Source: Georgenia satyanarayanai
GTDB taxonomy: Bacteria > Actinomycetota > Actinomycetes > Actinomycetales > Actinomycetaceae
Assembly: GCF_009193135.1 (NCBI RefSeq)
Contig: NZ_VUKC01000021.1
Span: forward strand, 1 to 53,413
DNA: 53,413 nt
Direction: 5' to 3'
The notes under the pieces were generated by a model that made no database searches, was not told the origin of the DNA, and saw nothing but the letters and a program-made list of their open reading frames with translations. The number at the start of each line of letters is the position of its first letter. The first letter of the stretch is position 1. The position numbers were made by a program, and so were the translations under genes. Positions 24,161 through 51,241 of this stretch are shown piece after piece.

Positions 24161-25801
24161 GTGCCCCGCCAGCCAGCCTCTCTGCCTGCCGAGAACGTGC
24201 AGCGACGGTTCGCCGTCCTCGGACGCCAGCTCCCCTTCTTCGTCGTGTTCGGCGTCATGACGATCGCCCTGGCCACCTGGGAGGAGTTCGGGACCGGCCT
24301 GCCGGACGCCGTCCTCGTCGGCGCCGCGGTCAACGTCACGGCCACGGTGCTCGCGGCCGCCGTGCCCTGGCAGTCGCTGCCCCGCCGGGTGGAGATGGTC
24401 GTCCCGCTGCTCGACATGGCCGCCGTCGTGTGCGTCCTCACCGTGGGGGCCCGGGCGTCGGTGCTCATCATCCTGCCCGTCGTCTGGCTGGCGGCGATGG
24501 GGAAGCGGGCGACCATCGTCGCCGTGGCCGCCGGGGTGGCCTCGTCCATGGGCGTCGACATCGTCCGGGCCGTCGAGGCCGGTGCGTTGTCGATCACGCC
24601 GGAGAACGCGGCCCGGATCTTCATCGTGCCCTCCGTCGTCATCGCCGTCGCCACGTCCCTGCACCTGTCGGAGCGGCGCTCCGCCGCCCGCCGGGAGCTC
24701 CTCGCGGGCCAGAGCGCTCTCGTCGAGGAGCTCCTCGAGGACACCGCACAGGACCGGGCGCGCCTCGAGGGTGTGCTCAACACCATCGACGCGGGCGTCG
24801 CCGTGCTCGACCCGCAGGGCACCGTCGTCGTCGCCAACCGGGCGCTGCGGGAGGCGACCCGCGGCGGGCTGACGGTCGGCTCACAGCTCGTCGACGCGGC
24901 CCCGCGGCTCCTCGCGGTCGACGGCGTCACCCCCGTGGACCCGGCGCGTCTCGTCGCCGTCGGCGGCGGCGAGCAGGTCTCCCGGCGCGTCGTGTGGTGG
25001 GAGCACGGCCCGGCCGAGCGTGCCGCCTTCCGGATCACCAGCGCCCCGCTGCCGAACGACGACGGCGTGAGCGAGGGCACCGTCGTCGCCGTCCACGACA
25101 TCACCGACGAGCTGCTCGCCCTGTCGCAGCGTGACGACTTCGTCTCGTCGGTGTCCCACGAGCTGCGCACCCCGCTCACCTCGGTCACCGGCTACCTCGA
25201 CCTCGTCATCGAGGACCCCGACCTGCCGCCCCACCTCGCCGGGTACCTCGAGGTGGCCGAGCGCAACGCCGGGCGCCTGCGCATCCTCATCGACAACCTC
25301 CTCGGCGCTGCCCGCACCGCCGCGGACGTCGGGTCGCGGGAGGACGTGGACCTGCGTGCCGTCGTCGAGGACGTCGTGGAGTCCCAGGCACCTCGCGCGG
25401 CGGACCGTGACATCGAGATCGTCGTCGCCGCGACCGGCTCGGGCGTCGTGCGGGGGGACGTGGGCCGGCTCACCCAGGTCATCGACAACGTCGTCTCGAA
25501 CGCGGTGAAGTACTCCCACCGGGACGGCCACGTCCGCGTCGAGATCGAGGACGCCGACCGCAGGGTTCGCCTCGTCGTCACCGACGACGGCCCGGGCATC
25601 CCCACCGCCCACCAGGAGCAGCTCTTCACCCGGTTCTACCGCGCGCCCGAGGTGCGGCACACCTCGGTCCAGGGCACCGGGCTGGGCCTGCACATCAGCC
25701 GCCAGATCGTCGAGGCGCTCGGCGGCACGATCACGCTCGCCTCCGACGCGGGCCACGGCACCCGCGTCGAGGTCCTCCTCCCGGCCGGGGGGCGTGGATG
25801 A
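24161..25801 (+). CDS. Membrane sensor histidine kinase with PAS-like domain
   Basis: A 546-residue kinase. Residues ~20-170 contain five or so membrane helices. Residues ~175-200 form a linker helix. Residues ~200-310 resemble a PAS domain (GVLNTIDAGVAVLDPQGTVV, TVVAVHDITDE). HisKA has SVSHELRTPLTSVTGYLDLV with the phospho-accepting His. The ATPase domain has N-box NVVSNAVKYS, DDGPGIP and GTGLGLHISRQ. All catalytic motifs are intact. It overlaps a degenerate GGDEF gene by 4 bp. The nearest response regulator is the OmpR-type gene at 29430-30203, its most likely partner. Confidence 0.93.
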   Translation: MPRQPASLPAENVQRRFAVLGRQLPFFVVFGVMTIALATWEEFGTGLPDAVLVGAAVNVTATVLAAAVPWQSLPRRVEMVVPLLDMAAVVCVLTVGARASVLIILPVVWLAAMGKRATIVAVAAGVASSMGVDIVRAVEAGALSITPENAARIFIVPSVVIAVATSLHLSERRSAARRELLAGQSALVEELLEDTAQDRARLEGVLNTIDAGVAVLDPQGTVVVANRALREATRGGLTVGSQLVDAAPRLLAVDGVTPVDPARLVAVGGGEQVSRRVVWWEHGPAERAAFRITSAPLPNDDGVSEGTVVAVHDITDELLALSQRDDFVSSVSHELRTPLTSVTGYLDLVIEDPDLPPHLAGYLEVAERNAGRLRILIDNLLGAARTAADVGSREDVDLRAVVEDVVESQAPRAADRDIEIVVAATGSGVVRGDVGRLTQVIDNVVSNAVKYSHRDGHVRVEIEDADRRVRLVVTDDGPGIPTAHQEQLFTRFYRAPEVRHTSVQGTGLGLHISRQIVEALGGTITLASDAGHGTRVEVLLPAGGRG

Positions 25802-26961
25802 CCCTCGACGCCTCCACGCTCTACCTCGTCTCGCTCACGGTCATCACCCTCATCGCGACCGTCTTCGTCCTCGAGGTCGCCAGCCGGGGCCGCACGCCGG
25901 TCGACCTCCTGTGGACCCTCGCGCTCACCAACGCCGTCACGACGGCGGTGTTCTACCTCGCCGCCTCGGCGAACGAGTCGCTGTGGTGGTTCGTCGCGCT
26001 GGGGAACGCCTCCTCCGTCATCACGACCATGGCGATGTGGAACGGTGTGCGCGCGGACGACGGACGCCGCCCGCTCCTGGGCGTCACGCTCGGTGCGGCC
26101 GCCGTCGCCGCCCTCACGACGCTCGTCGCCGGGCCCGCCGCCGGTGAGTGGGGCGGCGGCTGGGCGGTGCTGCTCGGGACGGCCGCGGGGGCCCTGCTCG
26201 GCGGGGCCGCGGCCCTGCGCGGCAGCGTGGGGAGACACCGCCTCGGGCGTGTCCTGGCCGGCGTCCTGCTGCTCGTCGGGTGCTACTACCTCCTCCGTCT
26301 GGTGGTCTACCTCGTGGCGGGCCCCGGCTCCCCGACGTTCGCCGGGCCCATGGGGACGTCGACGACGCTCATCGTGCTCCTCGTCCTCATCACCACGGCC
26401 GGGTACTGCATGGTGGTCCTGCGCATCGACGACGTCCACGGCCAGGAGGCCCGCCAGCATCCCTTCGACGCCCGTACCGGGCTGCGGACACCGGTGAGCT
26501 TCGTGCCCGCGGCGCTCGAGGCCGTGCGCGACGCGCACCGTGCGGGGGACCCGCTGGCCGTCGTCGTCGTCACCGTCGAGGGGCGCGACGACCTCGCCAC
26601 CGCCTTCCAGCCGGCCGCCGCCGAGGCGGCGCTCGCCTCCGTCGTCAACAGCGCGCGCTTTCTCGCGCCACCGTCGGCGTCCCTCGCGGGACGGGTGGAG
26701 GACACGGGCGACACCTTCGAGGTCCTCCTGCGCGGCTTCACCGGCGCCGAGGGGCACGTGTGGGCGGAGAACCTGCGCCGACGGGTCCTGCGCACCCCGC
26801 TCGCGCTCGACGGCGGTGGCCGCCTGCGGCTGCGCGTCAGCCTCGGGGTCGCCAGCGACGCCGAGACCGGCTACGACCTCGACGCGCTGCGGGCCCTGGC
26901 CACCCGGCGGGCGAGCGAGGCGCTCGCGGCGGGCGGCAACCGGGCCCTGGGGTGGTACTGA
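25798..26961 (+). CDS. Membrane protein with degenerate GGDEF domain
   Basis: A 387-residue protein with about six to seven membrane helices (residues ~5-210) followed by a cytoplasmic GGDEF-like domain. FDARTGLRTPVSF aligns with the usual DxLTGLxNR start. The catalytic GGDEF loop is replaced by DTGDTFEVLL, and no RxxD inhibitory site is visible, so diguanylate cyclase activity is unlikely. The end, RLRVSLGVAS and LRALATRRASEALAAGGN, keeps the GGDEF C-terminal pattern. It is translationally coupled to the histidine kinase, suggesting an accessory sensing role. Confidence 0.8.
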   Translation: MTLDASTLYLVSLTVITLIATVFVLEVASRGRTPVDLLWTLALTNAVTTAVFYLAASANESLWWFVALGNASSVITTMAMWNGVRADDGRRPLLGVTLGAAAVAALTTLVAGPAAGEWGGGWAVLLGTAAGALLGGAAALRGSVGRHRLGRVLAGVLLLVGCYYLLRLVVYLVAGPGSPTFAGPMGTSTTLIVLLVLITTAGYCMVVLRIDDVHGQEARQHPFDARTGLRTPVSFVPAALEAVRDAHRAGDPLAVVVVTVEGRDDLATAFQPAAAEAALASVVNSARFLAPPSASLAGRVEDTGDTFEVLLRGFTGAEGHVWAENLRRRVLRTPLALDGGGRLRLRVSLGVASDAETGYDLDALRALATRRASEALAAGGNRALGWY

Positions 26962-27032
26962 GGAAACCTGAGGCAGTCCTGAGGTGGGACTGAGGTGAGG
27001 GGCGGGGACCGCTGAGGTCGGCGGCCGATATT
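26958..27032 (+). promoter_or_regulatory. Phased CTGAGG operator array and promoter of the SipW-type exported-protein operon
   Basis: CTGAGG occurs at 26958, 26968, 26979, 26990 and 27012, spaced 10, 11, 11 and 22 bp, i.e. on one face of the helix. Direct repeats of about 11 bp are the classical binding layout of OmpR/PhoB regulators. A -10-like GATATT lies at 27027-27032, so the last repeat takes the place of the -35 box, as in PhoB-activated promoters. The obvious candidate ligand is the OmpR-type regulator encoded 3 kb downstream. Confidence 0.72.
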
Positions 27033-27078
27033 TGGTGCAGCGCCGGACAGACCGGCTCCTGAACCGGAAGGCACGACC

Positions 27079-27657
27079 ATGGCACGCTCCACCACCTCCC
27101 GCTCCACCGGCACCACGTGGAAGGCCGTCGCGGCCACCGCCGTGGGCGTCGTCGTCCTCGGCGTCGGCGGCGCCACCTTCGCCGAGTGGTCCGACTCCGA
27201 GGCCGCCGCGACCGACACCGCGATCACCGCCGGTGTCCTCGACCTCGCCGCCGGCCAGGGCACGTGGACGAACGTCGCCGGCGCGGACGTCACCGCCGCC
27301 GTCGCCGACGGGTCCTACCTCGTCGTCCCGGGCGACGCCCTCACCTACCGCGAGACGATGACGATCGACGCGCAGGGTGACCTGCTCCGCGCGACCGTCG
27401 CCCACAACCTCGAGGGCCTCACCGGCGACGCCGAGCTCCTCGCCCAGCTGCGCGAGAACGCGACGATGTCCCTCAACGGCGAGACCGTCACCGGGACCTC
27501 GGCCGCGGTCGTCGCCGAGGACGAGAAGCAGACCCTCGACGTCGCCGTCACCGTCGCCTTCGACTCCCGCACCGCGGGCCTCGTCGGCCAGGGGCAGGAC
27601 GTCGCCCTCGGCGGCCTGGACGTCACCCTCCAGCAGGACACCGTCCCCGCCGGCTGA
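27079..27657 (+). CDS. SipW/TasA-type exported protein 1
   Basis: A 192-residue protein with an alternate-type signal region. A hydrophobic helix (AVAATAVGVVVLGVGGATFA) is followed by EWSDSEAAATDTAITAGVLDL, which matches the pattern of SipW-dependent exported proteins (TasA, camelysin-like). The mature part is a short beta-rich domain with few cysteines. In Bacillus such proteins form surface fibres after cleavage by the signal peptidase SipW; function here is inferred from the signal only. GAAGGCACGACC precedes the ATG. Confidence 0.82.
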   Translation: MARSTTSRSTGTTWKAVAATAVGVVVLGVGGATFAEWSDSEAAATDTAITAGVLDLAAGQGTWTNVAGADVTAAVADGSYLVVPGDALTYRETMTIDAQGDLLRATVAHNLEGLTGDAELLAQLRENATMSLNGETVTGTSAAVVAEDEKQTLDVAVTVAFDSRTAGLVGQGQDVALGGLDVTLQQDTVPAG

Positions 27658-27694
27658 CCGCCACCAGCACACACCACCGGAGAGGAGGACCATC

Positions 27695-28201
27695 GTGCCG
27701 AACCGCCTGACCCGCGCCGCACTCGCCGCAGTCGTGGCGGCGGTCCTCCTCTCCGGCAGCGCCACCACCCTCGCCGGGTGGAACGACGCCGAGCTCCGCG
27801 ACGCCCAGGTCGTCTCGGCCGGTGAGCTCACCGTCGACCCGGTCAGCGCGAGCACCGTGGTCCTGCGGCCCGGGACCTCCCAGCCGCTGCCCGCGAGCAC
27901 CCCGCTCGTGCCGGGTGACGTCGTGCGTCTCACCTCGACGGTGACCGTCGGTGCCGCCGGGGACCTCCTCACCGGCACCCTCGGCCTTCAGGTCACCGGC
28001 CTGCAGGGGCTGACCCGGTCCACCCCGCGCGTGACGACGACGCTCCCCGCCGCCGGCACGGGTGGCTGGAAGGTCACGCCGGCCGCCGACGGCGCCACCG
28101 TCACCGCCGTCGTCGACCTCACCGTCCCGGCGACCGTCGCCCAGCACACCACCCTCGACGCCGGCGCGATCCGCTGGACCCTCACCCAGGAGATGCCATG
28201 A
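27695..28201 (+). CDS. SipW/TasA-type exported protein 2
   Basis: A 168-residue protein. Its signal region (AALAAVVAAVLLSGSATTLA) is followed by GWNDAELRDAQVVSAGELTV, the same arrangement as in the preceding gene (aromatic, small residue, Asp, then SAGxLxV). The remainder is beta-rich, with VPGDVVRLTSTVTVGAAGD resembling the equivalent VPGDALTYRETMTIDAQGD of protein 1, so the two are distant paralogues. AGAGGAGGACC precedes GTG 27695. The stop overlaps the next ATG. Confidence 0.78.
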   Translation: MPNRLTRAALAAVVAAVLLSGSATTLAGWNDAELRDAQVVSAGELTVDPVSASTVVLRPGTSQPLPASTPLVPGDVVRLTSTVTVGAAGDLLTGTLGLQVTGLQGLTRSTPRVTTTLPAAGTGGWKVTPAADGATVTAVVDLTVPATVAQHTTLDAGAIRWTLTQEMP

Positions 28202-29088
28202 CCACGCGGCTCACCGCCTGCCTCCTCGCCCTCGCCGTCGTGCTGGGCGGGGTGCTCCTCCTGCGTCCGAGCGAGTCCACGCTCGCCGCGTGGAGCGACG
28301 AGGCCACCGTGGCCGTGCCGCAGCTGCGCACCGGTGGCGTCCAGGTCGACGTCACCGGCAGTGGGACCACGGCCACTCTCGGCATGTCCGGTGACACGAG
28401 CGGCACCTGGCGTCCCGCCGCGGTGACCGTCCTCTCCGCCGGCCGCGCCCTCACCGGCGCGGAGCTCGCCGGCTCGCGCGTCGAGTACCGGCTGGCGAGG
28501 AACGGCGCCTGCGTCGCCGCCGACCCCGTCGCGTACTCCGCCAGCCCGAGCGGCACCGCCACCAGCTTCCCGGTCACCGGCGGGGAGCGTCTCAGCGGCG
28601 CCCACACCGTGTGCCTCACCTTCGTCCCCTCCGACCAGGTCCTCGTCCAGCTCGGCGGCCGCGCCCTGTCCTTCGTCACGACCGTCGACGGTGTCGCCGC
28701 CCCGACGGGCACGTGGACCGCGGCGAACACGTGGACGGCCAGCCACACGCTGCCCGCCGCCCCGACCGTCTCGGCCCTGCGCTGCACGCCCGGCTGGCTC
28801 AACCAGTGGGTCACCCTCGGCTGGGACTGGGACGGCGGGGACGCCGCGAACAGGCTCGCGCGCTTCAGTCTGCAGCTCCAGGACCGCGGCACGTGGCGCG
28901 ACGTCGCGACGATCTCCTCCCGCGCCCGGACGACGACGATCACCCCCTACCAGTTCAGCTTCGTCAGCTTCGACAGCTACACCCTGCGCGTGGTCGCGGT
29001 CCTCAACGACGGCACGACCGTCCCGACGTCCTCCACCACCAACGTCCGGGTCGAGCGCGTCGGTCTCGGTGCGGCGTACTGCTCGTGA
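28198..29088 (+). CDS. SipW-type exported protein 3 (larger, two-domain)
   Basis: A 296-residue exported protein with signal helix LTACLLALAVVLGGVLLL followed by STLAAWSDEATVAVPQLRTG, the third SipW-type signal region in a row. The mature part has an N-terminal beta domain. After a Thr/Trp-rich linker (TWTAANTWTASHTLP) comes a fibronectin-III-like domain ending in a Cys (AYCS). It may be the tip or anchor of a surface structure built with proteins 1 and 2; this is inference. It overlaps the previous gene by 4 bp. Confidence 0.75.
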   Translation: MTTRLTACLLALAVVLGGVLLLRPSESTLAAWSDEATVAVPQLRTGGVQVDVTGSGTTATLGMSGDTSGTWRPAAVTVLSAGRALTGAELAGSRVEYRLARNGACVAADPVAYSASPSGTATSFPVTGGERLSGAHTVCLTFVPSDQVLVQLGGRALSFVTTVDGVAAPTGTWTAANTWTASHTLPAAPTVSALRCTPGWLNQWVTLGWDWDGGDAANRLARFSLQLQDRGTWRDVATISSRARTTTITPYQFSFVSFDSYTLRVVAVLNDGTTVPTSSTTNVRVERVGLGAAYCS

Positions 29089-29101
29089 CCGCGGCGACAC
29101 C

Positions 29102-29443
29102 GTGACGGGGGGACTGGTGGACCGGTCGCAGCTGGCCGAGCTCGTTGGGCAGGTGGGAGCGGAGACCGCGGCGGGGATGGTCGAGCGTTTCGTGGCCATG
29201 ATGGGCGGCCGGCTCGGCGCGCTCCGGCAGGCGGTGGCGGGCGACGACGACCGGCGCGACGTGTCGCTCAGCCTGGCGTGCTCCGCCACCATGCTCGGCG
29301 CGCACGCCCTGGCCGACGCCGCCACGCGGTGCCGGACCGAGGACGGTGCGGGCGCCGAGCGGGCGCTGGCCGAGGTCGAGGCCCTCGCCGGGCCCACGTG
29401 CCACGCGCTGCGCGGGGCACGGGCAGCCCTCAGCGGGCGCTGA
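29102..29443 (+). CDS. Hpt-like protein lacking the phospho-accepting histidine
   Basis: A 113-residue all-helical protein resembling histidine phosphotransfer (Hpt) domains (LAELVGQVGAETAAGMVERF, then SLACSATMLGAHALADAATR). In active Hpt proteins the second stretch reads AHSLKGSAxxLGA. Here the His position is Leu56 and the Lys-Gly pair is Ala-Cys, so it cannot relay phosphate in the usual way. It may dock to the receiver of the adjacent regulator. GTG 29102 is used; GTG 29117 is an alternative. Its 3' end overlaps the convergent regulator gene by 14 bp. Confidence 0.68.
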   Translation: MTGGLVDRSQLAELVGQVGAETAAGMVERFVAMMGGRLGALRQAVAGDDDRRDVSLSLACSATMLGAHALADAATRCRTEDGAGAERALAEVEALAGPTCHALRGARAALSGR

Positions 29444-30203
29444 GCGCCAGCCTGTAGCCCACCCCGCGAACGGTCTCGACGTACCGCGGGCTGGTGGCGT
29501 CCTCGCCGAGCTTGCGCCGCAGGTTGGCGACGTGGACCTCCACCGAGCGGCGGTCCGCGTCGGTCGCCTCGAGGCCGGTGTCGTAGCTCTCGGACCACAG
29601 CACACCGGCGAGCTGGGACTTGGACAGCACCCGGCGGGGGTTGGACAGCAGGGCGGCGAGGATGTCGAACTCGCTGCGGGTCAGCTCCAGCGGCGCCCCG
29701 CCCAGCTCGACGACCCGCGCGTCGCGGTCCAGGCGCAGCTCCCCGTGGGCGAGCAGGGCGTCGTCCGGCGCCTCCGCCGCGGGCGGCGCGGCCGGCCCGG
29801 CCGGTACCGGCTCGGCGGGAACCGCGCGCGGACGACGCAGCAGGGCCTCGATGCGGGCGCGGATCTCACGCGGCCGGAAGGGCTTGGTCACGTAGTCGTC
29901 CGCACCCGCCTCGAGTCCGAGCAGGGTGTCGATCTCGTCGGCCCGGCCGGTGAGCATGAGGAGGTAGGTGTCGGAGAACGCGCGGATGCGCCGCGCCACC
30001 TCGAAGCCGTCGAAGTCGGGCAGGGAGATGTCGAGGGTGGTGATGAGGGGCCGCAGCTCACGGACCGCGTCGACGCCCGCCTGACCGGTGGGTGCCGTCG
30101 TCACGGTGAAGCCTGCCTGCCCCAGCGTCGCCTCGAGGAGGAACCTGATGTCGGCGTCGTCCTCGATGACCACTGCGTTGCCCCGCGCGCCCGTCTCGTT
30201 CAC
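29430..30203 (-). CDS. OmpR/PhoB-family response regulator
   Basis: A 257-residue two-domain regulator. The receiver has acidic pocket EDD (14-16), phospho-acceptor Asp58 in TLDISLPDFDGFE, Thr85 and Lys107 in DDYVTKPF, so it is fully conserved. A Pro/Ala-rich linker leads to a winged-helix domain with ELTRSEFDILAALLSNPRRV, RRSVEVHVANLRRKLG and YVETVRGVGYRL. No kinase adjoins it, but the histidine kinase at 24161 is the only one in the window. OmpR-type proteins bind direct repeats, matching the CTGAGG array at 26958-27032. Confidence 0.93.
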   Translation of the reverse strand: MNETGARGNAVVIEDDADIRFLLEATLGQAGFTVTTAPTGQAGVDAVRELRPLITTLDISLPDFDGFEVARRIRAFSDTYLLMLTGRADEIDTLLGLEAGADDYVTKPFRPREIRARIEALLRRPRAVPAEPVPAGPAAPPAAEAPDDALLAHGELRLDRDARVVELGGAPLELTRSEFDILAALLSNPRRVLSKSQLAGVLWSESYDTGLEATDADRRSVEVHVANLRRKLGEDATSPRYVETVRGVGYRLALSAR

Positions 30204-38075: not shown

Positions 38076-40106
38076 TCACACGGCGCCCGCAATGGCTACG
38101 GGGACGGGCGCGAGGAGGTCGAGGGTGAGGACGGTCTGTCCCCGCAGCTCGGACCGTGCGTCCGTCCGCAGGGTGTCGGGTCGGCGGGGGTTGTCCAGAT
38201 GCCTGAGCACCCGCTCCAGGGATCGCGCGGCGGCGTCCTCGCGGCCGCCGTCGAGCCGGTCCCGCGCCTGCCGCAGGGCGGTGGCGAGCTGGTGGGCGAC
38301 CGGTCCGGCGACCGCGCCGGAGGCGACGTGCCGTTCGAGCGCGGCGTCCAGGCCGGCGAGGGCGTCCCGCGGGTCGGTGGGGGCGGTGGACCCGTCGGCG
38401 GTGACGCGGGTCCAGCCGTCCGCGACGACCGTGGCCCGGTCTGTGGGGTCCCAGTCGTCGACGACCGTGACGCCGTCGTCCTGCACCCGCACGTGCTCGA
38501 CGTAGACGCCGCGGCCGGAGTAGACGGCGTCGGTGACGTAGCGCAGCCGGAGGACGACGTCGCCGGTGAGGCCCACGTCGTAGCGGCCCTGCCACCAGCG
38601 GCCCTCGCCGTCACCGGAGACGCCGCCGGCCGCGTCGCGGACGGTGCCCCCGGCGGTGAGCGTGCCGTCCAGGGGGTGCCACGTGGCGCCGTCGTCGGCG
38701 GACGCCTCGACGTGGAGGACGTCGGTCGGCTCGGTGTGGAACCACAGGTCGACGAGGAGCTCACCGTCGCCGGCGAGCGTGGCCGGCACGGTGAGGGTGC
38801 GGTCGAGGAGGTCGCCGATGCCCGAGTACCAGGCCGTGCCGCGGGTGAAGCCGCTCATCGGGCGCGCCAGTCCCGCGGCCCGCGCGACGGCGCGGCGCAC
38901 GGGGTTGATGTTGCCCCAGTCGCGGCTCGGGTGGACCCGGTTGGTCATGAGGATCGCGATGGTCTCGGTGTGCGGGTCGATGACCAGGGACGTGCCGGTG
39001 AAGCCGGTGTGCCCGGCGGACTCCGCGCTCGTGAGGACGTCGTGGTAGAACCACGCCTCCAGCTCGGGGCCGAGGCCGCGGTGTGCGGAGGAGACCTGCC
39101 CGGTGTAGTCGCGCATCATCGTCTCGACGGTCCGCGGCTGGAGGACCTGCGCCCCGTCGTAGCTGCCCCCGTTGAGGAGCATCTGCCCGAAGACCGCGAC
39201 GTCGTCGGCGGTGGAGAAGACCCCGGCGTGCCCGGCGACCCCGTTCAGCCGCCACGCGGCCTCGTCGTGCACGACGCCGTGGACGAGGCCGCGGTCGGGC
39301 ACGGCCTGGTACTCGGTGGCCGCGATGCGGGGGAGCAGCTCGGCGGGCGGGTTGTACATCGTGTCGCCCATCCCGAGCGGCCCGGTGATGTGCTCGGCGA
39401 CGTAGGTGTCCAGCCCCTGCCCCGAGATCCGCTCGACGATCTCCCCGAGCGTGATGAGGCCGAGGTCGCTGTAGGTGTAGGCGGTGCCCGGCTCGCTCGT
39501 CAGCGCGACGTCCCAGACCCGCTGGAGCGCCGCCTCCTCGTCCGGTGCGCTCCACAGGTTGATCCACGCGGGCAGCCCGCCGGTGTGCGTGAGGAGCTGC
39601 TCGACGGTGATGTCGCCCTTGCCGTTCGCGGCGAAGGCGGGGACGTAGGTGGCCGCCGGCTCGTCGAGGTCGATCTCGCCGCTCTCGACGAGCTGCAGGA
39701 CGGAGACGGCGGTGAAGAGCTTGGAGAGCGAGGCGAGGTCGAACATCGTGTCGGTCCGCATCTCGACCTGCTGCTCGGGCGGCAGCTCGGTGTCGGGGTC
39801 GGCCCAGCGCACCGCGTGCCCGACCGCCGTCCGCTCGACGACGACGCCCTCGGCCGCGACGAGCGCCACCGCTCCGGGGTAGAAGGGGGTCGGCTCGCGC
39901 GTGAGGCCCTCGCGGAGCGCAGGCTCGATCGCGTCGAGCTCACGGGCGACGAGCCCCACCTCCTCCGCGCTGCCGTCCCGCAGCACCCGCTGCGGAGCCG
40001 CCGTCCGGTCCCAGCCGACCCGGTCGTCGGGCGCCCCGCTCGCGGGGAGCACCGTCCCGATGAGCGCGACGCCGACCGTCGCACCGACAGCAATCAACCT
40101 GCGCAT
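38076..40106 (-). CDS. Secreted serine hydrolase (beta-lactamase/PBP4-like) with FIMAH-like C-terminus
   Basis: A 676-residue exported protein. The signal peptide is residues ~1-26 (LIAVGATVGVALIGTVLPASG). The S12-type hydrolase domain has the catalytic SxxK in DLASLSKLFTAVSV, the YSD variant of YxN in TYTYSDLGLITLGE, and HTGFTG late in the domain. It then carries a beta-sandwich region (~470-580). An all-helical C-terminal ~80 residues (LDAALERHVASGAVAGPVAH) resembles the FIMAH domain of surface proteins. Related enzymes cut D-alanyl peptides or esters. GGAGGGG precedes ATG 40106. Confidence 0.85.
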   Translation of the reverse strand: MRRLIAVGATVGVALIGTVLPASGAPDDRVGWDRTAAPQRVLRDGSAEEVGLVARELDAIEPALREGLTREPTPFYPGAVALVAAEGVVVERTAVGHAVRWADPDTELPPEQQVEMRTDTMFDLASLSKLFTAVSVLQLVESGEIDLDEPAATYVPAFAANGKGDITVEQLLTHTGGLPAWINLWSAPDEEAALQRVWDVALTSEPGTAYTYSDLGLITLGEIVERISGQGLDTYVAEHITGPLGMGDTMYNPPAELLPRIAATEYQAVPDRGLVHGVVHDEAAWRLNGVAGHAGVFSTADDVAVFGQMLLNGGSYDGAQVLQPRTVETMMRDYTGQVSSAHRGLGPELEAWFYHDVLTSAESAGHTGFTGTSLVIDPHTETIAILMTNRVHPSRDWGNINPVRRAVARAAGLARPMSGFTRGTAWYSGIGDLLDRTLTVPATLAGDGELLVDLWFHTEPTDVLHVEASADDGATWHPLDGTLTAGGTVRDAAGGVSGDGEGRWWQGRYDVGLTGDVVLRLRYVTDAVYSGRGVYVEHVRVQDDGVTVVDDWDPTDRATVVADGWTRVTADGSTAPTDPRDALAGLDAALERHVASGAVAGPVAHQLATALRQARDRLDGGREDAAARSLERVLRHLDNPRRPDTLRTDARSELRGQTVLTLDLLAPVPVAIAGAV

Positions 40107-42417: not shown

Positions 42418-45400
42418 ATGAAGCCTAACAACTCCCGGGCACGACTGCGCCGCGGCGTCGCCGCAGCGGTCACCGGGTTCCTCGCCGTCAGCGGCCTCGT
42501 CGCCGCGGGCGTGCCGGCCACGGCACACGACGGCGTCGACCACGACGCCGAACCGGGCGCCGAGGCGGCGCTCGACTGGTCGAACTACGAGAAGGTCACC
42601 CTGACGAAGGACGTCGGGGAGCCCATCGACATGGCGATCCTGCCCGACGGCAGGGTGCTCCACACCGCCCGCAACGGCGACGTCCGCCTCACCGACCCGA
42701 ACACCGGCGTCACCCGGATCACCAACAGGATCCCCGTCTACGCCAACTCCGAGGACGGTCTCCAGGGCATCGCGATCGACCCGGACTTCGAGGAGAACAA
42801 CTGGGTCTACCTCGTCTACGCGCCGGTCGAGCTCTCCGGCGTCTCACCGTCGACCGGACGTCCCTACCCGGCGACGACCCCCAGCGGCAACGCCCCGAAC
42901 TCCCTGCCCGCCGGCCAGGACGTCACCTACTGGGACCAGTGGCTGGGCTACAACCTCCTCGCGCGCTTCCAGTGGGACGCGGAGACCAACACCCTCGACC
43001 TCGCCTCCGAGCAGGAGCTGCTCAAGTTCGAGGCCCAGCGCGGACAGTGCTGCCACGTCGGTGCCGACATCGACTTCGACGGTGACGGCAACCTCTACCT
43101 CAGCACCGGGGACAACACCCCGGCAAGCACGCCGGGCGCCAACGGCTTCGCGCCGAACAACGACGCGCCCGGGATGAACCCTGGCTTCGACGCCCGCCGC
43201 GGAGCCGGGAGCACGAACGACCTGCGCGGCAAGATCCTGCGCATCAACGTGCTCGACGAGATCGAGCCCGGTGTCGAGCCCGGACCGGGCGCGACGTACA
43301 CCATCCCCGAGGGGAACCTCTTCACCGGCGAGGAGTACGACGACGTCCGCGACAAGGTCCGCGACGAGATCTTCGTCATGGGCGCGCGCAACCCCTTCCG
43401 CATCGAGGTCGACCCCGGGACCAACTCTCTCTCGTGGGGCGACTACGGTCCGGACGCGTCCCGCGCGGTCGCCGCGGCGAACCCCGACCGCGGCCCGATG
43501 GGCTACGTCGAGTGGAACGTCGTCTCGCTGGACACCCCGGTCAACGCCGGGTGGCCCTACGTGCACGGCGACAACTTCCCGTACAACGAGTGGGACTACG
43601 CCACGGCGAGCCCGCGTGAGTTCTTCGACCCGGAGAACCTGCGCAACAACTCGCGGTGGAACACCGGCCTCGTCGAGCTGCCGCCCGCCTTCCCTGCGAC
43701 GCTCTACTACGGCGACAACCCCGGCGACCAGCCGTGGGACGAGCTCGTCAACTTCGGCGCCGGGTCCGGCCAGGGCCCGATGGGCGGCCCCGTCTACCAC
43801 TACGACGCGGACAACCCCTCCACGGCGAAGTTCCCCGAGTACTGGGACAGGAAGAACTTCTTCGGCGAGTTCTCCCAGGACTACATCGCCGCCTTCACGG
43901 TGGACTGGGAGGCCTTCGAGGTCACCCACATCGAGGACTTCATGCCCAACCGGCTGATGACCTTCGACGCCGTCCCGCCGATCGACAACCCGATGGACAT
44001 GGAGTTCGGGCCCGACGGCTCGCTCTACGTGCTCGACTACGGCGACGGCTTCTTCCGCGCGAACCCGGACTCCGGGCTTCACCGGATCTCCTACGCCGAG
44101 GGCAACAAGGCTCCGCGCCCGGCCTTCGCGGCCACCCCGATCTCCTCGTCCGCGGCCCCGCTCGAGGTCCGGTTCGACGCCTCGGCGTCGATGGACCCCG
44201 AGGGTGGTGCGCTCACCTACGAGTGGGACTTCGACGGTGACGGCACCTTCGACGCCACCGGCGTCGCGGCGACCCACACCTACGACGAGCTCGGCCTGTA
44301 CTTCCCCCGTCTGCGGGTGACGGACCCGCAGGGCAAGTTCGGCCTCACCTCCCGGCAGATCTCCGTGGGCAACCAGGCCCCGGAGATCACGGTCAACCAC
44401 CCCCTCAACGGTGGGTTCTTCGACTGGGGCAACGTCGTCCCGCTCCAGGTGACCACCCAGGACGCCGAGGACGGCAACGAGACCGTGTGCTCGCGCGTGA
44501 GCTGGACCTACGGTCTGGGCCACGACGAGCACGCCCACCCCGAGCTCTCGGGCACCGGCTGCCAGGCCGGCATCCGCACCGACCCCAACTCCCCGGAGCA
44601 CGGGGCGGGCGCGCTGCTCTACGGCGCGATCGTCGTCACCTACCGCGACGCCGGCGCCAACGGCGTCCCGGCGGCGACCGGCGAGGCCACCGTCCGGCTC
44701 AACCCGAAGCTCCAGCAGGCCGAGCACGCCCTCGGCCGTCAGGGTGTCGTCGTCTACGCCGACGAGGACGCCAGCGGCGGCAGCGCCGTGCGCGGACTCG
44801 GCGGCGGTGACTTCCTGCGCTACGACCCGGTGAACTTCTCCGGGATCGACAGCGTGGTCGTCCGTGCCACCGGTGGTGGCGAGGTCCAGCTGCGGTGGGG
44901 AGCGGCCGACGCCGCGCCCTTCGCCGTCGCCCGCATCCCCGGCGGATCGGGCTGGAAGGACGTCCCGGTGGCGCTCACCGGCGCCCCGCAGGGCACCGGG
45001 CAGCTGTTCGTCACCTCGGGCGACGAGCTCGCCGTCGACAGCCTCACGATGGTGGGCGCCGGCGTCGCCGACGTCCAGGCCCCGACGGTCGCGCACACGC
45101 TGGCCCCGGCGGCCCCGACGGGTGTCGGCGGCGTCTACAACGTGCCGGTCCGGTTCTCGGTGCAGCCGCAGGACAACGGTGCGCTGCAGTCGGTGCAGTA
45201 CTCCGTCAACGGCGGGACCTCGTGGTCGAACCTCAGTGCCAACCAGCAGTACGGCGTGAACTTTGGCAACAACGGTGAGTACACGGTGCTCTACCGGGCC
45301 ACCGACACCGCGGGCAACGTCTCCGAGACCGGCAGCGTGTCCTTCACCATCGACCTGAACGCTCCGAACGAGCCCACGGTCGACTCCGTGACGCGCGCGT

Positions 45401-45951
45401 CGCTGTCCTCGCTGCGGGCCGTCTACGGCGCCCCGGGCGAGGTCACCGTCACCGTGTCCGGTGAGGGCGGCACGCCGTCCGGCGAGGTCGTCGTCACGAG
45501 CGGCGACCGTGAGGTCGGGCGCGCCACCCTGAGCGAGGGTGCTGCGACCGTCGAGCTGGACCCGACCCTGGCGGTGGGCACCCACACCCTGCAGGTGGCC
45601 TACCAGGCCGACGAGACCTTCAAGACGTCGCAGACCACCGCGCGCCTGATCGTCACCAAGGCGGCGACCACCGTCACCGCCAGCGTCGCGTCGGTCAAGC
45701 CAGCCGTCGCGGCGAAGGTCAACGTCCACGCCGAGACGGAGACCGACCTCGCCGGCGACGGTGAGGTCACCATCCAGGTCAAGCGCGGTGTGTCGACCGT
45801 GGCGATGCTCAGCGCCACGCTCGACGAGAACGGTGACGCCGTCGTCACCCTGCCCAAGCTCGCGGCCGGCACCTACTCGCTGACCGTCGTGCACAAGGCG
45901 ACCGCGAACACCACGGCGAGCTCGGTCATCACGAGCCTCGTCGTCAAGTAG
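42418..45951 (+). CDS. Secreted PQQ-dependent sugar dehydrogenase-like multidomain protein
   Basis: A 1177-residue exported protein. Signal peptide: residues ~1-36 (RRGVAAAVTGFLAVSGLVAA). Residues ~50-560: six-bladed beta-propeller of the soluble glucose/sorbosone dehydrogenase type, with EDGLQGIAIDPDF, GADIDFDGDGNLYLSTGDN and ARNPFRIEVDPGTN. Residues ~565-650: PKD domain (TYEWDFDGDGTFDATG). Residues ~765-890: CBM6-like beta-sandwich (KLQQAEHALGRQGVVVYADE). Residues ~900-985: OmpL47-like repeat (VQYSVNGGTSW). Two Ig-like domains end it. It probably binds and oxidises sugars outside the cell. ATG 42418 has GAAGGAG 13 bases upstream; GTG 42385 is an alternative. Confidence 0.88.
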   Translation: MKPNNSRARLRRGVAAAVTGFLAVSGLVAAGVPATAHDGVDHDAEPGAEAALDWSNYEKVTLTKDVGEPIDMAILPDGRVLHTARNGDVRLTDPNTGVTRITNRIPVYANSEDGLQGIAIDPDFEENNWVYLVYAPVELSGVSPSTGRPYPATTPSGNAPNSLPAGQDVTYWDQWLGYNLLARFQWDAETNTLDLASEQELLKFEAQRGQCCHVGADIDFDGDGNLYLSTGDNTPASTPGANGFAPNNDAPGMNPGFDARRGAGSTNDLRGKILRINVLDEIEPGVEPGPGATYTIPEGNLFTGEEYDDVRDKVRDEIFVMGARNPFRIEVDPGTNSLSWGDYGPDASRAVAAANPDRGPMGYVEWNVVSLDTPVNAGWPYVHGDNFPYNEWDYATASPREFFDPENLRNNSRWNTGLVELPPAFPATLYYGDNPGDQPWDELVNFGAGSGQGPMGGPVYHYDADNPSTAKFPEYWDRKNFFGEFSQDYIAAFTVDWEAFEVTHIEDFMPNRLMTFDAVPPIDNPMDMEFGPDGSLYVLDYGDGFFRANPDSGLHRISYAEGNKAPRPAFAATPISSSAAPLEVRFDASASMDPEGGALTYEWDFDGDGTFDATGVAATHTYDELGLYFPRLRVTDPQGKFGLTSRQISVGNQAPEITVNHPLNGGFFDWGNVVPLQVTTQDAEDGNETVCSRVSWTYGLGHDEHAHPELSGTGCQAGIRTDPNSPEHGAGALLYGAIVVTYRDAGANGVPAATGEATVRLNPKLQQAEHALGRQGVVVYADEDASGGSAVRGLGGGDFLRYDPVNFSGIDSVVVRATGGGEVQLRWGAADAAPFAVARIPGGSGWKDVPVALTGAPQGTGQLFVTSGDELAVDSLTMVGAGVADVQAPTVAHTLAPAAPTGVGGVYNVPVRFSVQPQDNGALQSVQYSVNGGTSWSNLSANQQYGVNFGNNGEYTVLYRATDTAGNVSETGSVSFTIDLNAPNEPTVDSVTRASLSSLRAVYGAPGEVTVTVSGEGGTPSGEVVVTSGDREVGRATLSEGAATVELDPTLAVGTHTLQVAYQADETFKTSQTTARLIVTKAATTVTASVASVKPAVAAKVNVHAETETDLAGDGEVTIQVKRGVSTVAMLSATLDENGDAVVTLPKLAAGTYSLTVVHKATANTTASSVITSLVVK

Positions 45952-48400: not shown

Positions 48401-49444
48401 ATGGACACTCCCGCCCGCCGCGCCGCAGCCGCCCTGCTGGCGGTGCTCGCCCTCGCCGGCGCCACCCTCGTGGGGTGGACGCTGCCGGCCACCGCCGCCA
48501 CGGAGCCCGACGAGGTGACGTGGAGCGTCCAGACGGCCGACAACGCCAACGGCCAGAGCCGCCCGAACTACCAGTACGAGCTCGTGCCGGGGCAGACCCT
48601 GGACGACGCGATCGTCGTGACCAACTACTCCGACCGGGCCCTGACCTTCGCCGTCTACGCCGCCGACGGCTTCCTCAACGAGGTCGCGCAGCTCGACCTC
48701 CTGCCCGCCGGGGAGCAGTCCGAGCACGTGGGCCAGTGGGTGACCCTGGCCGCCGACGAGGTGACGGTCGGTGCCGGTGAGGCCGTGTCCATCGACTTCC
48801 GGCTCACCGTCCCGCCGAACGCGACGCCCGGGGACTACGCCGGGGGCATCGTCACCTCCCTCGGCCCCGCCGACACCGGTGAGGGCGTGCAGGTGGACCG
48901 CCGTCTCGGCTCGCGCCTCCTCCTGCGCGTGGGCGGCGACCTCAGCCCTTCGCTGACGGTGAGCGACGTCGAGGTCGACCACCGCGGGTCGTGGCTGCCG
49001 TGGCAGCCCGGGAACGCCACCGTCACCTTCACCCTGGAGAACACGGGCAACGTCCGCCTCACCGGCACCCAGACGGTGGGCTTCGCCGGTCTGCTCGGGC
49101 TGGGCGGGCGCAGCGCGGTGAGCGTCGACGTCGAGGAGATGCTGCCCGGCAGCAGCTTCGAGCGCACCGTCGAGCTCGAGGGCGTGTGGCCGCTGCTCCG
49201 GACGACCGGCACGGTGGCCGTCGACGGCGCACCGGTCGGTGAGGAGGACGAGCGGCCGCTCGCACGGGAGGCCTTCGCGCTGTGGACAGTGCCGTGGTCG
49301 GTGCTCGCCGGCCTGGCCGTCGTCGTCGCGGCCGTCGTGCTCAGCCGGCTCCGCGCGCGGCGCCGCCGGCAGGCCGAGGACCGCCGCGTGGCCGCCGCCG
49401 TCGCCGCCGCCGTCGCCGCCCAGGAACCCGCCCCCCTTCCCTGA
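48401..49444 (+). CDS. DUF916-type (WxL peptidoglycan-domain) membrane-anchored surface protein
   Basis: A 347-residue protein. The signal peptide (residues ~1-33) ends LPATAATEP. The first beta domain begins VTWSVQTADNANGQSRPNYQ and YELVPGQTLDDAIVVTNYSD, the pattern of the DUF916 domain of WxL-associated proteins, with VPPNATPGDYAGGIVTSL further on. The second (~185-290, VTFTLENTGNVRLTGTQTVG) is Ig-like. A membrane helix (PWSVLAGLAVVVAAVVLSRL) and a basic, Ala-rich cytoplasmic tail end it. It probably anchors or displays the preceding WxL-like protein. Confidence 0.83.
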   Translation: MDTPARRAAAALLAVLALAGATLVGWTLPATAATEPDEVTWSVQTADNANGQSRPNYQYELVPGQTLDDAIVVTNYSDRALTFAVYAADGFLNEVAQLDLLPAGEQSEHVGQWVTLAADEVTVGAGEAVSIDFRLTVPPNATPGDYAGGIVTSLGPADTGEGVQVDRRLGSRLLLRVGGDLSPSLTVSDVEVDHRGSWLPWQPGNATVTFTLENTGNVRLTGTQTVGFAGLLGLGGRSAVSVDVEEMLPGSSFERTVELEGVWPLLRTTGTVAVDGAPVGEEDERPLAREAFALWTVPWSVLAGLAVVVAAVVLSRLRARRRRQAEDRRVAAAVAAAVAAQEPAPLP

Positions 49445-49603: not shown

Positions 49604-49921
49604 TCAGCCGCCGATGATGACGGTGGGGCACCCGGGGCCGGGGGCGATCGGCGTGCCGTGGAGGGACATGTCGCCGAGACGCGCGGCGGGGAAGCTGCCG
49701 ATGAGGACGGTCATGCTGCCCATCGCGATCCCGTTGGGGGCGGGGGAGACGCAGACGATGCCGCCGGGCATGGAGTTGGCGACGGCCGCGGGCATCCCCC
49801 CGATGAGCACCGTCGGTACCGCCGCTGCCGGCGTCACGGGGCCGCCCACGTGCGGCTTGGGACCGTCGAACAGCGGGCAGAGCGCCGAGTCGCCCGCCCG
49901 CAGCGCCGGGCCCACGGGCAC
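49604..49921 (-). CDS. PAAR-repeat protein
   Basis: A 105-residue protein made of two PAAR halves. The first has AGDSALCPLF, HVGGPVTPAAAVPTVLIGGM and PAAVAN. The second has GIAMGSMTVLIGSFPAARLG, then DMSLHGTPIAPGPGCPTVIIGG. PAAR proteins cap the spike of contractile injection systems. No spike, sheath or baseplate gene is in the window. It starts (GTG 49921) three bases after the preceding membrane-protein gene, so the two form an operon. Confidence 0.85.
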   Translation of the reverse strand: MPVGPALRAGDSALCPLFDGPKPHVGGPVTPAAAVPTVLIGGMPAAVANSMPGGIVCVSPAPNGIAMGSMTVLIGSFPAARLGDMSLHGTPIAPGPGCPTVIIGG

Positions 49922-49924
49922 CGC

Positions 49925-51241
49925 TCAGTCCTCCGCGGGCTGGAGGAGGGTGCCGCCGTAGAGGACCGACGTGTCGCAGGTGGTGGGTGGCGGGTCCTGC
50001 GCCGGTGGCACCCCGACCTCGTCGCACCGCACGGTCATCGCCAGCTCGGCGCCCTCCCCGGCGACGATGGGCTCCTGGAAGTGGTAGTCGACGCTGCGGA
50101 AGTTCTCCAGCGCGAGGTCGAGGAGCGTGCGCCCGTCCAGCGTGAGCTCGACCCGCCCGAAGTCACCCTGCGGGTTGCTCACCACGAAGTCGGTGAGCCG
50201 GACCGTGCCCTCGGCGGGGACGACGAACGGTTCTGGGGACTGGGTCGCCCCCGGCGCCGTGTCCACCTGGAACCGGTCGGCGACCGGGACGACGAGGTCG
50301 TCGAGCGTGGGCGATCCGACGAGGTCGTTCGCCTCGACTGCGGCGGAGCTGGCCTCGGTGGACGCGGCCTGTGCCGCACGCGCGGCGTTGGACGCCTGCC
50401 CCGCCTCCTCACCGGCCTGCTGCGCCGCGACCGCGGCCTCACGCGCGGCCTCGTTCGCCTGGGCGACGTCCTCCTCGACGGCCCGCTGCGCCGTCGACAC
50501 GATCGTGGGGCGCAGCACGAGGAACCACAGCGCGGCGAGAAGGAGCAGCAGGGCCACGAGCGCGAGCAGGGCCTTGAGGAACCACGGCGGGAGGAGTGCC
50601 TCCTGGAGGTGGGTGCCCTCCAGCGTGACCGGCGTCGTCTCCTCGGTGTGGACCGTGAGCGTGAAGGGGTGCGTGACCGAGGCTCCTCGCCAGATGCGGC
50701 TGCGCGGGGTCACGCGCAGGTCGGCGAAGGCCGCCTCACCGGGCGGGACGGTGAGCGCGGCGGGTCGCGCGTCGACCCGGAGGGCGTCCTGGTCAGGGGC
50801 GGCCAGGCGGACGGTGACCGGGACGTTGCCGCGGTTGTCCACCGCCACGTGGTGGGTGGCGCCCCGCCTGCCACGGGAGGTGCGGGGGACCAGCTCTGCG
50901 GTGGTCTCGAGGAAGGGCAGGACCTCGACCATGCCCTCGGGGACGACCGCCTGCTCGGGGTGCTCGGTCGGCACCACCCGCACGCCGAAGCTCAACTGAC
51001 CCGCCGGGACGGACGCGGAGCGCGGCGGGGCGAAGGAGATCGTCGCCGTCGTCTCCGCGCCGGGGAACAAGCCGGTGATCTCCGCGGGGTCGACGGATGT
51101 CCACGCCCCCGGCACGCCGAGCACCTCGATCCGGTACCCCTCGACGATCTCGCCGTCGTTGCGGATCTGGAGAGGCACCTGCTCCACGGCACCGGCCGCC
51201 AGCCGGACAGACGGGCGCTCCAGGCGCGCAGTCGTGGTCAT
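49925..51241 (-). CDS. Single-span membrane protein with Ig-like (COG1470-type) and coiled-coil domains
   Basis: A 438-residue protein without a signal peptide. Residues ~1-210: two Ig-like domains related to COG1470 proteins (VPLQIRNDGEIVEGYRIEVL, HVAVDNRGNVPVTVRLAA). Residues ~222-245: membrane helix (ALLALVALLLLLAALWFLV). Residues ~255-310: Ala-rich coiled coil (EEDVAQANEAAREAAVAAQQ). Residues ~315-438: C-terminal beta domain. Ig-like/COG1470 membrane proteins are sometimes found near contractile injection gene clusters in actinobacteria; here only PAAR accompanies it. Function unknown. Confidence 0.75.
   Translation of the reverse strand: MTTTARLERPSVRLAAGAVEQVPLQIRNDGEIVEGYRIEVLGVPGAWTSVDPAEITGLFPGAETTATISFAPPRSASVPAGQLSFGVRVVPTEHPEQAVVPEGMVEVLPFLETTAELVPRTSRGRRGATHHVAVDNRGNVPVTVRLAAPDQDALRVDARPAALTVPPGEAAFADLRVTPRSRIWRGASVTHPFTLTVHTEETTPVTLEGTHLQEALLPPWFLKALLALVALLLLLAALWFLVLRPTIVSTAQRAVEEDVAQANEAAREAAVAAQQAGEEAGQASNAARAAQAASTEASSAAVEANDLVGSPTLDDLVVPVADRFQVDTAPGATQSPEPFVVPAEGTVRLTDFVVSNPQGDFGRVELTLDGRTLLDLALENFRSVDYHFQEPIVAGEGAELAMTVRCDEVGVPPAQDPPPTTCDTSVLYGGTLLQPAED

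Follow-up and report, generated by a model that had tools for sequence, protein, structure and literature searches.

Gene content of the locus

The analyzed DNA, contig C13 of a 3.44-Mb Georgenia satyanarayanai genome (G000), is 53,413 nucleotides long and is referred to in its entirety as the window. At 24161-30203 it carries genes for a sensor kinase, a GGDEF-derived membrane protein, three exported proteins (S1, S2 and S3 in gene order), an Hpt protein without its phospho-acceptor His (the pseudo-Hpt) and an OmpR-type response regulator. This cluster is a real, conserved circuit of the SipW-plus-two-component kind, and the pseudo-Hpt is its surprising part. The features were as follows.

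24161..25801, + strand: membrane sensor histidine kinase with about five transmembrane segments and PAS, HisKA and HATPase_c domains (Pfam/NCBIfam, transmembrane prediction, orthologues)
25798..26961, + strand: protein with multiple transmembrane segments and a GGDEF-derived C-terminal domain without the GGDEF motif (TGDTF; profiles, alignment)
26958..27017, + strand: predicted operator of the regulator, with perfect CTGAGG half-sites at 26958, 26968, 26979, 26990 and 27012 (motif search)
27027..27032, + strand: -10-like hexamer GATATT, 9 base pairs (bp) past the proximal half-site (promoter comparison)
27079..27657, + strand: S1, exported, SipW-type alternate signal (TIGR04089, 101.3 bits, cut-off 60)
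27695..28201, + strand: S2, exported, SipW-type alternate signal (TIGR04089, 68.7 bits, cut-off 60)
28198..29088, + strand: S3, exported, signal pattern as in S1 and S2, sub-threshold fn3-like C terminus (translation, Pfam, transmembrane prediction, orthologues)
29102..29443, + strand: pseudo-Hpt, a soluble Hpt-fold protein with Leu replacing the phospho-acceptor His (Pfam, alignments, PDB profile, transmembrane prediction)
29430..30203, - strand: OmpR-type response regulator, tail-to-tail with the pseudo-Hpt gene (Pfam, alignment)

The gene assignments of a preliminary description of this DNA, namely an intact kinase, a GGDEF-derived protein without GGDEF, three exported proteins, a His-less Hpt and an intact OmpR-type regulator, were all confirmed. 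Overlaps of 4 bp join the kinase gene to the GGDEF-like gene and S2 to S3, and the Hpt and regulator genes overlap tail-to-tail by 14 bp. Each kinase domain scored above its Pfam cut-off (HisKA 54.7 bits, HATPase_c 109.8, PAS_4 29.3). The regulator matched Response_reg (83.6) and Trans_reg_C (81.5), its receiver retains the acidic pair, the Asp and the Lys in the alignment, and it belongs to the OmpR/PhoB family.

Conservation of the cluster

The cluster is complete in four of the six genomes of the genus, the window's own included, and is therefore not a chance arrangement. A fifth genome (G003) has everything save the GGDEF-like gene, for which no match was found in that genome, and in another, 57% complete, the cluster is interrupted by a contig end. 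The usual Georgenia order is kinase, GGDEF-like protein, S1, S2, S3, SipW peptidase, at least one Hpt and, in opposite orientation, the regulator. The window's genus has the peptidase outside the main locus, and in G007 and G012 the cluster is rearranged. In relatives such as L120, a single locus unites SipW with the exported proteins and their cognate two-component system; for the window, SipW is encoded at another place in the genome, under the same predicted operator. Matches to the GGDEF-like protein occurred in 19 of 99 genomes, counting the window's own, and had E < 1e-30 in ten; TIGR04089 matches occurred in 21, including all ten of these.

Farther out, loci of Isoptericola and Promicromonospora (L127 and L128) keep S1-S2-SipW-Hpt-regulator with no adjacent kinase or GGDEF-like gene. 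Loci of Kocuria, Brevibacterium, Ornithinicoccus, Ornithinimicrobium and Arsenicicoccus combine exported genes with SipW. These 13 loci, together with L067, L082 and L246, served as 16 negative SipW loci: six-frame scans of them gave no match to the Hpt, kinase or GGDEF-like families and regulator scores of at most 37 bits (L133). The conserved co-occurrence that the preliminary description had proposed to look for is thus present in Georgenia and partly beyond it, as judged by neighbourhood comparison.

Exported proteins and SipW peptidases

S1, S2 and S3 each have a single N-terminal hydrophobic segment, followed by AEWSD, AGWND and AAWSD, respectively. The TIGR04089 cut-off was passed by S1 and S2 and not by S3, for which no NCBIfam model matched and Pfam gave the sub-threshold fn3 match alone. 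S1 scored 14.0 bits against Pfam Peptidase_M73 (camelysin), under the cut-off of 22.5, and its profile found no significant solved structure in the PDB, with a full-length match to AbpX at E = 0.75.

A six-frame profile scan found no gene for a SipW-type peptidase in the window. At least two such peptidases are encoded outside the window, on contigs C4 and C12; no search aimed at additional ones was made. Because the peptidase is absent from the window and encoded elsewhere, in an operon with the same predicted operator, the circuit is not self-contained, contrary to the preliminary description. The C4 operon consists of an S1 paralogue (82% identical; S1') and a gene whose product fuses SipW to an Hpt domain, with Peptidase_S26 (26.9 bits) and Hpt (31.0 bits) both above the Pfam cut-off. 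Positive charges before membrane segment 1 and after segment 2 of this fusion predict that its Hpt part is cytosolic. A third SipW locus, on C12 (L067, G000:C12), has SipW and TIGR04089-type proteins with neither Hpt nor operator.

The SipW-Hpt fusion was also found by alignment in G001, G002 and G004. At the main locus of G055 a fusion is likewise encoded, in which Pfam detects the peptidase only and our own Hpt profile scores 82 bits. In another order, a single frame (L278) combines an Hpt above cut-off with a weak, below-cut-off Peptidase_S26 match of 14.5.

A predicted operator in front of the exported genes

Five perfect CTGAGG half-sites lie 5' of S1; the last four (26968, 26979, 26990 and 27012) are in 11-bp phase and the first is one base off. 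The 3.44-Mb genome holds three copies of the spaced pair CTGAGG-N(4-5)-CTGAGG, all of them at the window promoter (reversed control, 0). The relaxed form YTGAGS-N5-YTGAGS likewise has three matches, of which two are at the window promoter and the third precedes the C4 operon (reversed control, 4).

Across genomes, the exact pair was found 5' of a called gene in 21 of 35 loci with a regulator, Hpt or GGDEF-like gene, and in 0/16 negative SipW loci (Fisher p = 2.8e-5; outside Georgenia's family p = 0.007, 7/17 versus 0/16, excluding L227, which was fetched because an operator match adjoined its Hpt gene). The count becomes 22 when L126 is added; its S1 promoter, like the G026 regulator, was missed by the simple gene caller and recovered by six-frame scan. 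Half-site spacings other than 11 (6-19 tried) gave pairs in 0-4 of the 35 loci. Among 359 permutations of the hexamer columns the median was 0/35; the highest count, 22, came from a one-base shift of the real motif and the next was 13.

Outside the family, the pair precedes SipW-associated exported genes (L241, L242), a predicted exported gene (L244), Hpt genes (L227, L243) and glycosyltransferase-type genes (L235, L237 and L238; Pfam was run on L237). In G017, within Georgenia's family, it also precedes a glycosyltransferase gene. At L237, L238, L235 and L081, the regulator family adjoins a family-2 glycosyltransferase-type gene behind the same operator (Pfam on L237 and L081), and from these neighbours an exopolysaccharide branch of the regulon is possible. 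A tandem CTGAGGGGCGG repeat with an 11-bp unit and four overlapping pattern matches (G055:C1:1045607-1045656) may be a minisatellite or a large operator array. Genome-wide specificity of the operator was not seen in relatives, where the motif alone does not define the regulon.

In most S1 promoters the half-site stands at a fixed distance from a -10-like hexamer. YTGAGn-N9-nAnnnT was present in 18/18 S1 promoters of a first set, 15 of which had perfect in-phase half-sites upstream, and 4/7 further S1 promoters fitted, among them L126 with both the half-site/-10 geometry and an 11-bp-phase pair. In total, 22 of 25 S1 promoters of regulator-bearing lineages have this geometry: 19/19 in Georgenia's family, Isoptericola and Promicromonospora, and 3/6 elsewhere. 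These sets include near relatives, and L139 was counted as regulator-bearing by genus, its contig ending before the place of the regulator. The geometry was absent from the negative SipW loci (0/10 in the first set, 0/16 in the full set), and an array plus -10 from 6,000 shuffled sequences (0/6000). Scans covered 220 bp in the first 18 promoters; in the seven others, whose start codons had not been fixed, they covered the 330 bp preceding the first aligned residue. The rules for the operator and for half-site-N9-(-10) were derived by visual inspection of Georgenia promoters, which are therefore no independent test; the independent cases are L241, L242 and L244 (TAnnnT) and the seven later-added promoters.

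Because of the conserved co-occurrence and the regulator-type operator in front of the exported genes, the kinase and regulator very probably control these genes, as had been proposed. A half-site ending 9 bp before the -10 is the geometry of a class II (PhoB-like) activator. We regard it as unlikely that the repeats are read by another regulator or that the system represses S1-S3: direct-repeat motifs cannot reveal their reader and many OmpR-type regulators repress, but the arrays track this gene set in the proportions given above (21/35 versus 0/16), and the position of the last half-site fits activation.

Two degenerate signalling domains

The window's GGDEF-derived protein scored 18.7 bits against TIGR00254, under the NCBIfam cut-off of 37.4. 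Of ten proteins scanned in all, eight were motif-less relatives, three of which reached the cut-off (63.6, 49.8 and 41.3) and five of which fell below it; the other two, the intact relatives L083 and L084, have GGEEF and scored 154.6 and 138.7 bits. The family profile matched solved diguanylate cyclases in the PDB with E down to 6.6e-10. By domain homology, taken from the family profile and the three relatives over the cut-off, the protein belongs to the GGDEF superfamily. The GG(D/E)EF active site is missing in 27/27 aligned relatives. A role as a cyclic di-GMP (c-di-GMP) enzyme was rejected because of the absent motif together with a genome in which no Pfam GGDEF or EAL domain matched at E <= 0.001; because of the latter result, any c-di-GMP role is unlikely. 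We infer that the protein is an accessory to the co-translated kinase.

The Hpt-like protein of the window scored 15.7 bits against a Pfam Hpt cut-off of 24.6, which was passed by six of the 13 scanned Hpt-bearing proteins (the window protein among the 13). The family profile matched 7c1i (E = 2.3e-8) and LuxU (9.7e-6) in the PDB, and in the family alignment a Leu sits at the column of the 7c1i His (AHSFKG motif). By the family profile, the window protein is an Hpt domain; it lacks the phospho-acceptor His.

His is missing from the acceptor column in 58 of 59 Hpt rows, 26 from Georgenia's family (L119 was dropped as a duplicate of L077) and 33 from elsewhere; near relatives are included, and the rows are not independent. 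The regulator, called with our own profile at >= 180 bits, lies within 1 kilobase (kb) of the Hpt gene in 44/59 rows (21/26 in the family, 23/33 elsewhere), on the opposite strand in 44/44 and tail-to-tail in 17 family rows and 22 others. It also adjoins the Hpt in 15 of 20 loci chosen by Hpt profile match irrespective of neighbours (L247-L266). In 13 of 20 loci from a class-wide search, which provide the comparison with other orders, all eight Hpts with a regulator within 1 kb have Leu at the acceptor column, and all five without it have His (three of these inside hybrid kinases). Since Hpts without a regulator neighbour show His there, the acceptor column is correctly placed.

Decay of the Hpt was rejected, as loss of the His is near-uniform while fold positions are conserved in the alignments. 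As far as alignments can tell, the evidence supports both degenerate domains being fixed in the family rather than freshly decayed. A strong genome-level linkage between Hpt and TIGR04089 was also rejected: of 396 genomes, 64 had an Hpt match and 71 a TIGR04089 match, but only 18 had both (odds ratio 2.1; p = 0.03, calculated without phylogenetic correction and with hybrid-kinase matches in the Hpt set of 64).

Alternatively, an ordinary two-component system could control the exported genes, with the Hpt-like and GGDEF-like proteins left over, inert, from a former phosphorelay and c-di-GMP enzyme. Catalytic residues are absent from both proteins, the genome has no Pfam GGDEF or EAL match, and G003 keeps the remaining cluster without a GGDEF-like match. 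Remnants would decay, however, and the Hpt fold positions have not; moreover, the Hpt gene is duplicated (three copies in G026, four in L126), is joined to SipW in G055, in the genus of the window and perhaps in L278, where the peptidase is below cut-off, and mostly stays by the regulator across families. This explanation is accordingly improbable. Continued phosphate relay through another residue, such as a His three residues past the usual site, is very improbable: several Hpt members read LSLH, with His in the usual Lys position, but the window protein and the other aligned genus-g1 members have Ala or Gly there, and the alignments of 15 or 20 rows contain no invariant His.

Proposed circuit and its weighing

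We propose, with a probability of about 0.6, that the kinase/regulator pair activates the S1-S3-Hpt and C4 operons and that the pseudo-Hpt feeds back as a ligand that cannot be phosphorylated. Gene order and domains suggest that the kinase, with the GGDEF-derived protein as accessory subunit, phosphorylates the OmpR-type regulator. The phosphorylated regulator would then bind the 11-bp-periodic YTGAGS repeats, which are present in the promoter anatomy, and would activate two operons, S1-S2-S3-Hpt in the cluster and, acting in trans, S1'-SipW/Hpt on C4. S1-S3, which carry the signal pattern, would be exported and cut by the SipW of C4 and/or C12. The pseudo-Hpt, made from a regulator-controlled promoter, would dock on the receiver without phosphate exchange and limit regulator activity, and the Hpt fused to SipW would act at the membrane, coupling output to peptidase level or occupancy. 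For the pseudo-Hpt step, the Hpt homology, the missing His, the gene pairing and the predicted cytosolic side were observed; from these we infer the binding and the sign of the effect. That both degenerate domains act as allosteric inputs, as the preliminary description suggested, is a fair guess from sequence.

More tentatively, these proteins may represent an actinobacterial pseudo-Hpt family, paired with an opposite-strand OmpR-type regulator and often made from its promoter, whose members would be non-catalytic ligands; the SipW fusion would sense export and feed back on the surface-protein genes.

Several points weigh against the activation-and-feedback circuit. That the Hpt limits the regulator rather than stimulating it is a guess. 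The exact pair is lacking in 14 of the 35 candidate loci, and 15 related or outgroup genomes hold 84 exact-pair matches (reversed control, 59), of which 68 lie elsewhere and 16 at system promoters, the latter by our count S1, C4-type, glycosyltransferase or Hpt promoters. At S1 promoters, L261, L255 and L263 have the half-site/-10 without an in-phase array, G007 has a single in-phase perfect half-site upstream, and L233, L250 and L256, from regulator-bearing loci, have neither geometry nor array; at L250 a pair precedes the divergent Hpt gene instead. Twelve non-S1 target promoters divide into four with half-site/-10 plus array, two with half-site/-10 only and six with neither. The triple of kinase, GGDEF-like protein and regulator also adjoins glycosyltransferase genes with no SipW nearby. 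The Hpt of L262 (9581-10189, - strand) adjoins the regulator yet keeps His at the acceptor column, and 46 of 64 genomes with an Hpt match (a set that includes long hybrid-kinase frames) have no TIGR04089 match.

Relation to known systems

PhoB/Pho-box promoters share with the predicted operator direct repeats of 11-bp period that end about 10 bp before the -10; they differ from it in hexamer and regulon.

The comparisons that follow draw on excerpts of the cited papers. The preliminary description knew of no described system of this composition, a statement overtaken by the sipW-bsaABCRSD locus of Clostridium perfringens, in which genes for a SipW-type peptidase and several exported proteins likewise stand together with those for a cognate two-component system (PMC7395162). 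There, BsaRS controls the sipW operon positively and is required for its expression, and BsaR binds the sipW promoter (PMC7395162), a precedent for the activation proposed here. Unlike in the window, the peptidase lies within that operon and BsaA polymers were shown, whereas the present proteins are known from their genes; the excerpted text describes no pseudo-Hpt, GGDEF-derived protein or peptidase-Hpt fusion (PMC7395162). The Bacillus loci tapA-sipW-tasA and sipW-tasA/calY share a dedicated SipW peptidase with its exported matrix proteins, but are under SinR control, have no two-component system described in the locus in the excerpts, and encode fibre proteins, whereas S1-S3 are known here from sequence (PMC4292775, PMC13082335). 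SipW has been reported to affect matrix gene expression too (Terra et al. 2012, as cited in PMC13082335). The plant protein AHP6 is, like the pseudo-Hpt, an Hpt protein without acceptor His, and it negatively regulates phosphorelay; it is thought to compete with functional AHPs for kinases (PMC7402358). The pseudo-Hpt differs in standing next to a bacterial regulator of the OmpR type and in being joined, in some members, to a signal peptidase.

In the open-licence PubMed Central literature, neither a fusion of a signal peptidase with an Hpt nor a bacterial pairing of a His-less Hpt with an OmpR-type regulator turned up. A SipW operon that includes a dedicated two-component system is already published; no description of the degenerate partners or of the fusion was found in that literature. 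If the proposed circuit is right, the pseudo-Hpt would be a bacterial counterpart of the plant pseudo-HPt inhibitors, the fusion would link a signal peptidase physically to a two-component system, and catalytically dead GGDEF and Hpt domains would have a use where no Pfam GGDEF/EAL is detected. The predicted operator would render surface-protein regulation directly testable in Georgenia and several other Micrococcales.

Other genes in the window

Elsewhere in the window, a PAAR-motif protein (49604-49921, - strand, 61 bits) adjoins a 438-amino-acid gene (49925-51241, - strand) with sub-threshold Pfam matches only; the site possibly encodes a piece of a contractile apparatus. A predicted exported protein (48401-49444, + strand) matches a WxL-interacting-protein peptidoglycan-binding domain at 35.2 bits. 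Two larger proteins are a hydrolase of the serine beta-lactamase fold (PF00144) that also has MAM-like and FIMAH domains (38076-40106, - strand) and a 1177-amino-acid GSDH protein with PKD, Ig-like and CBM_6 domains (42418-45951, + strand).

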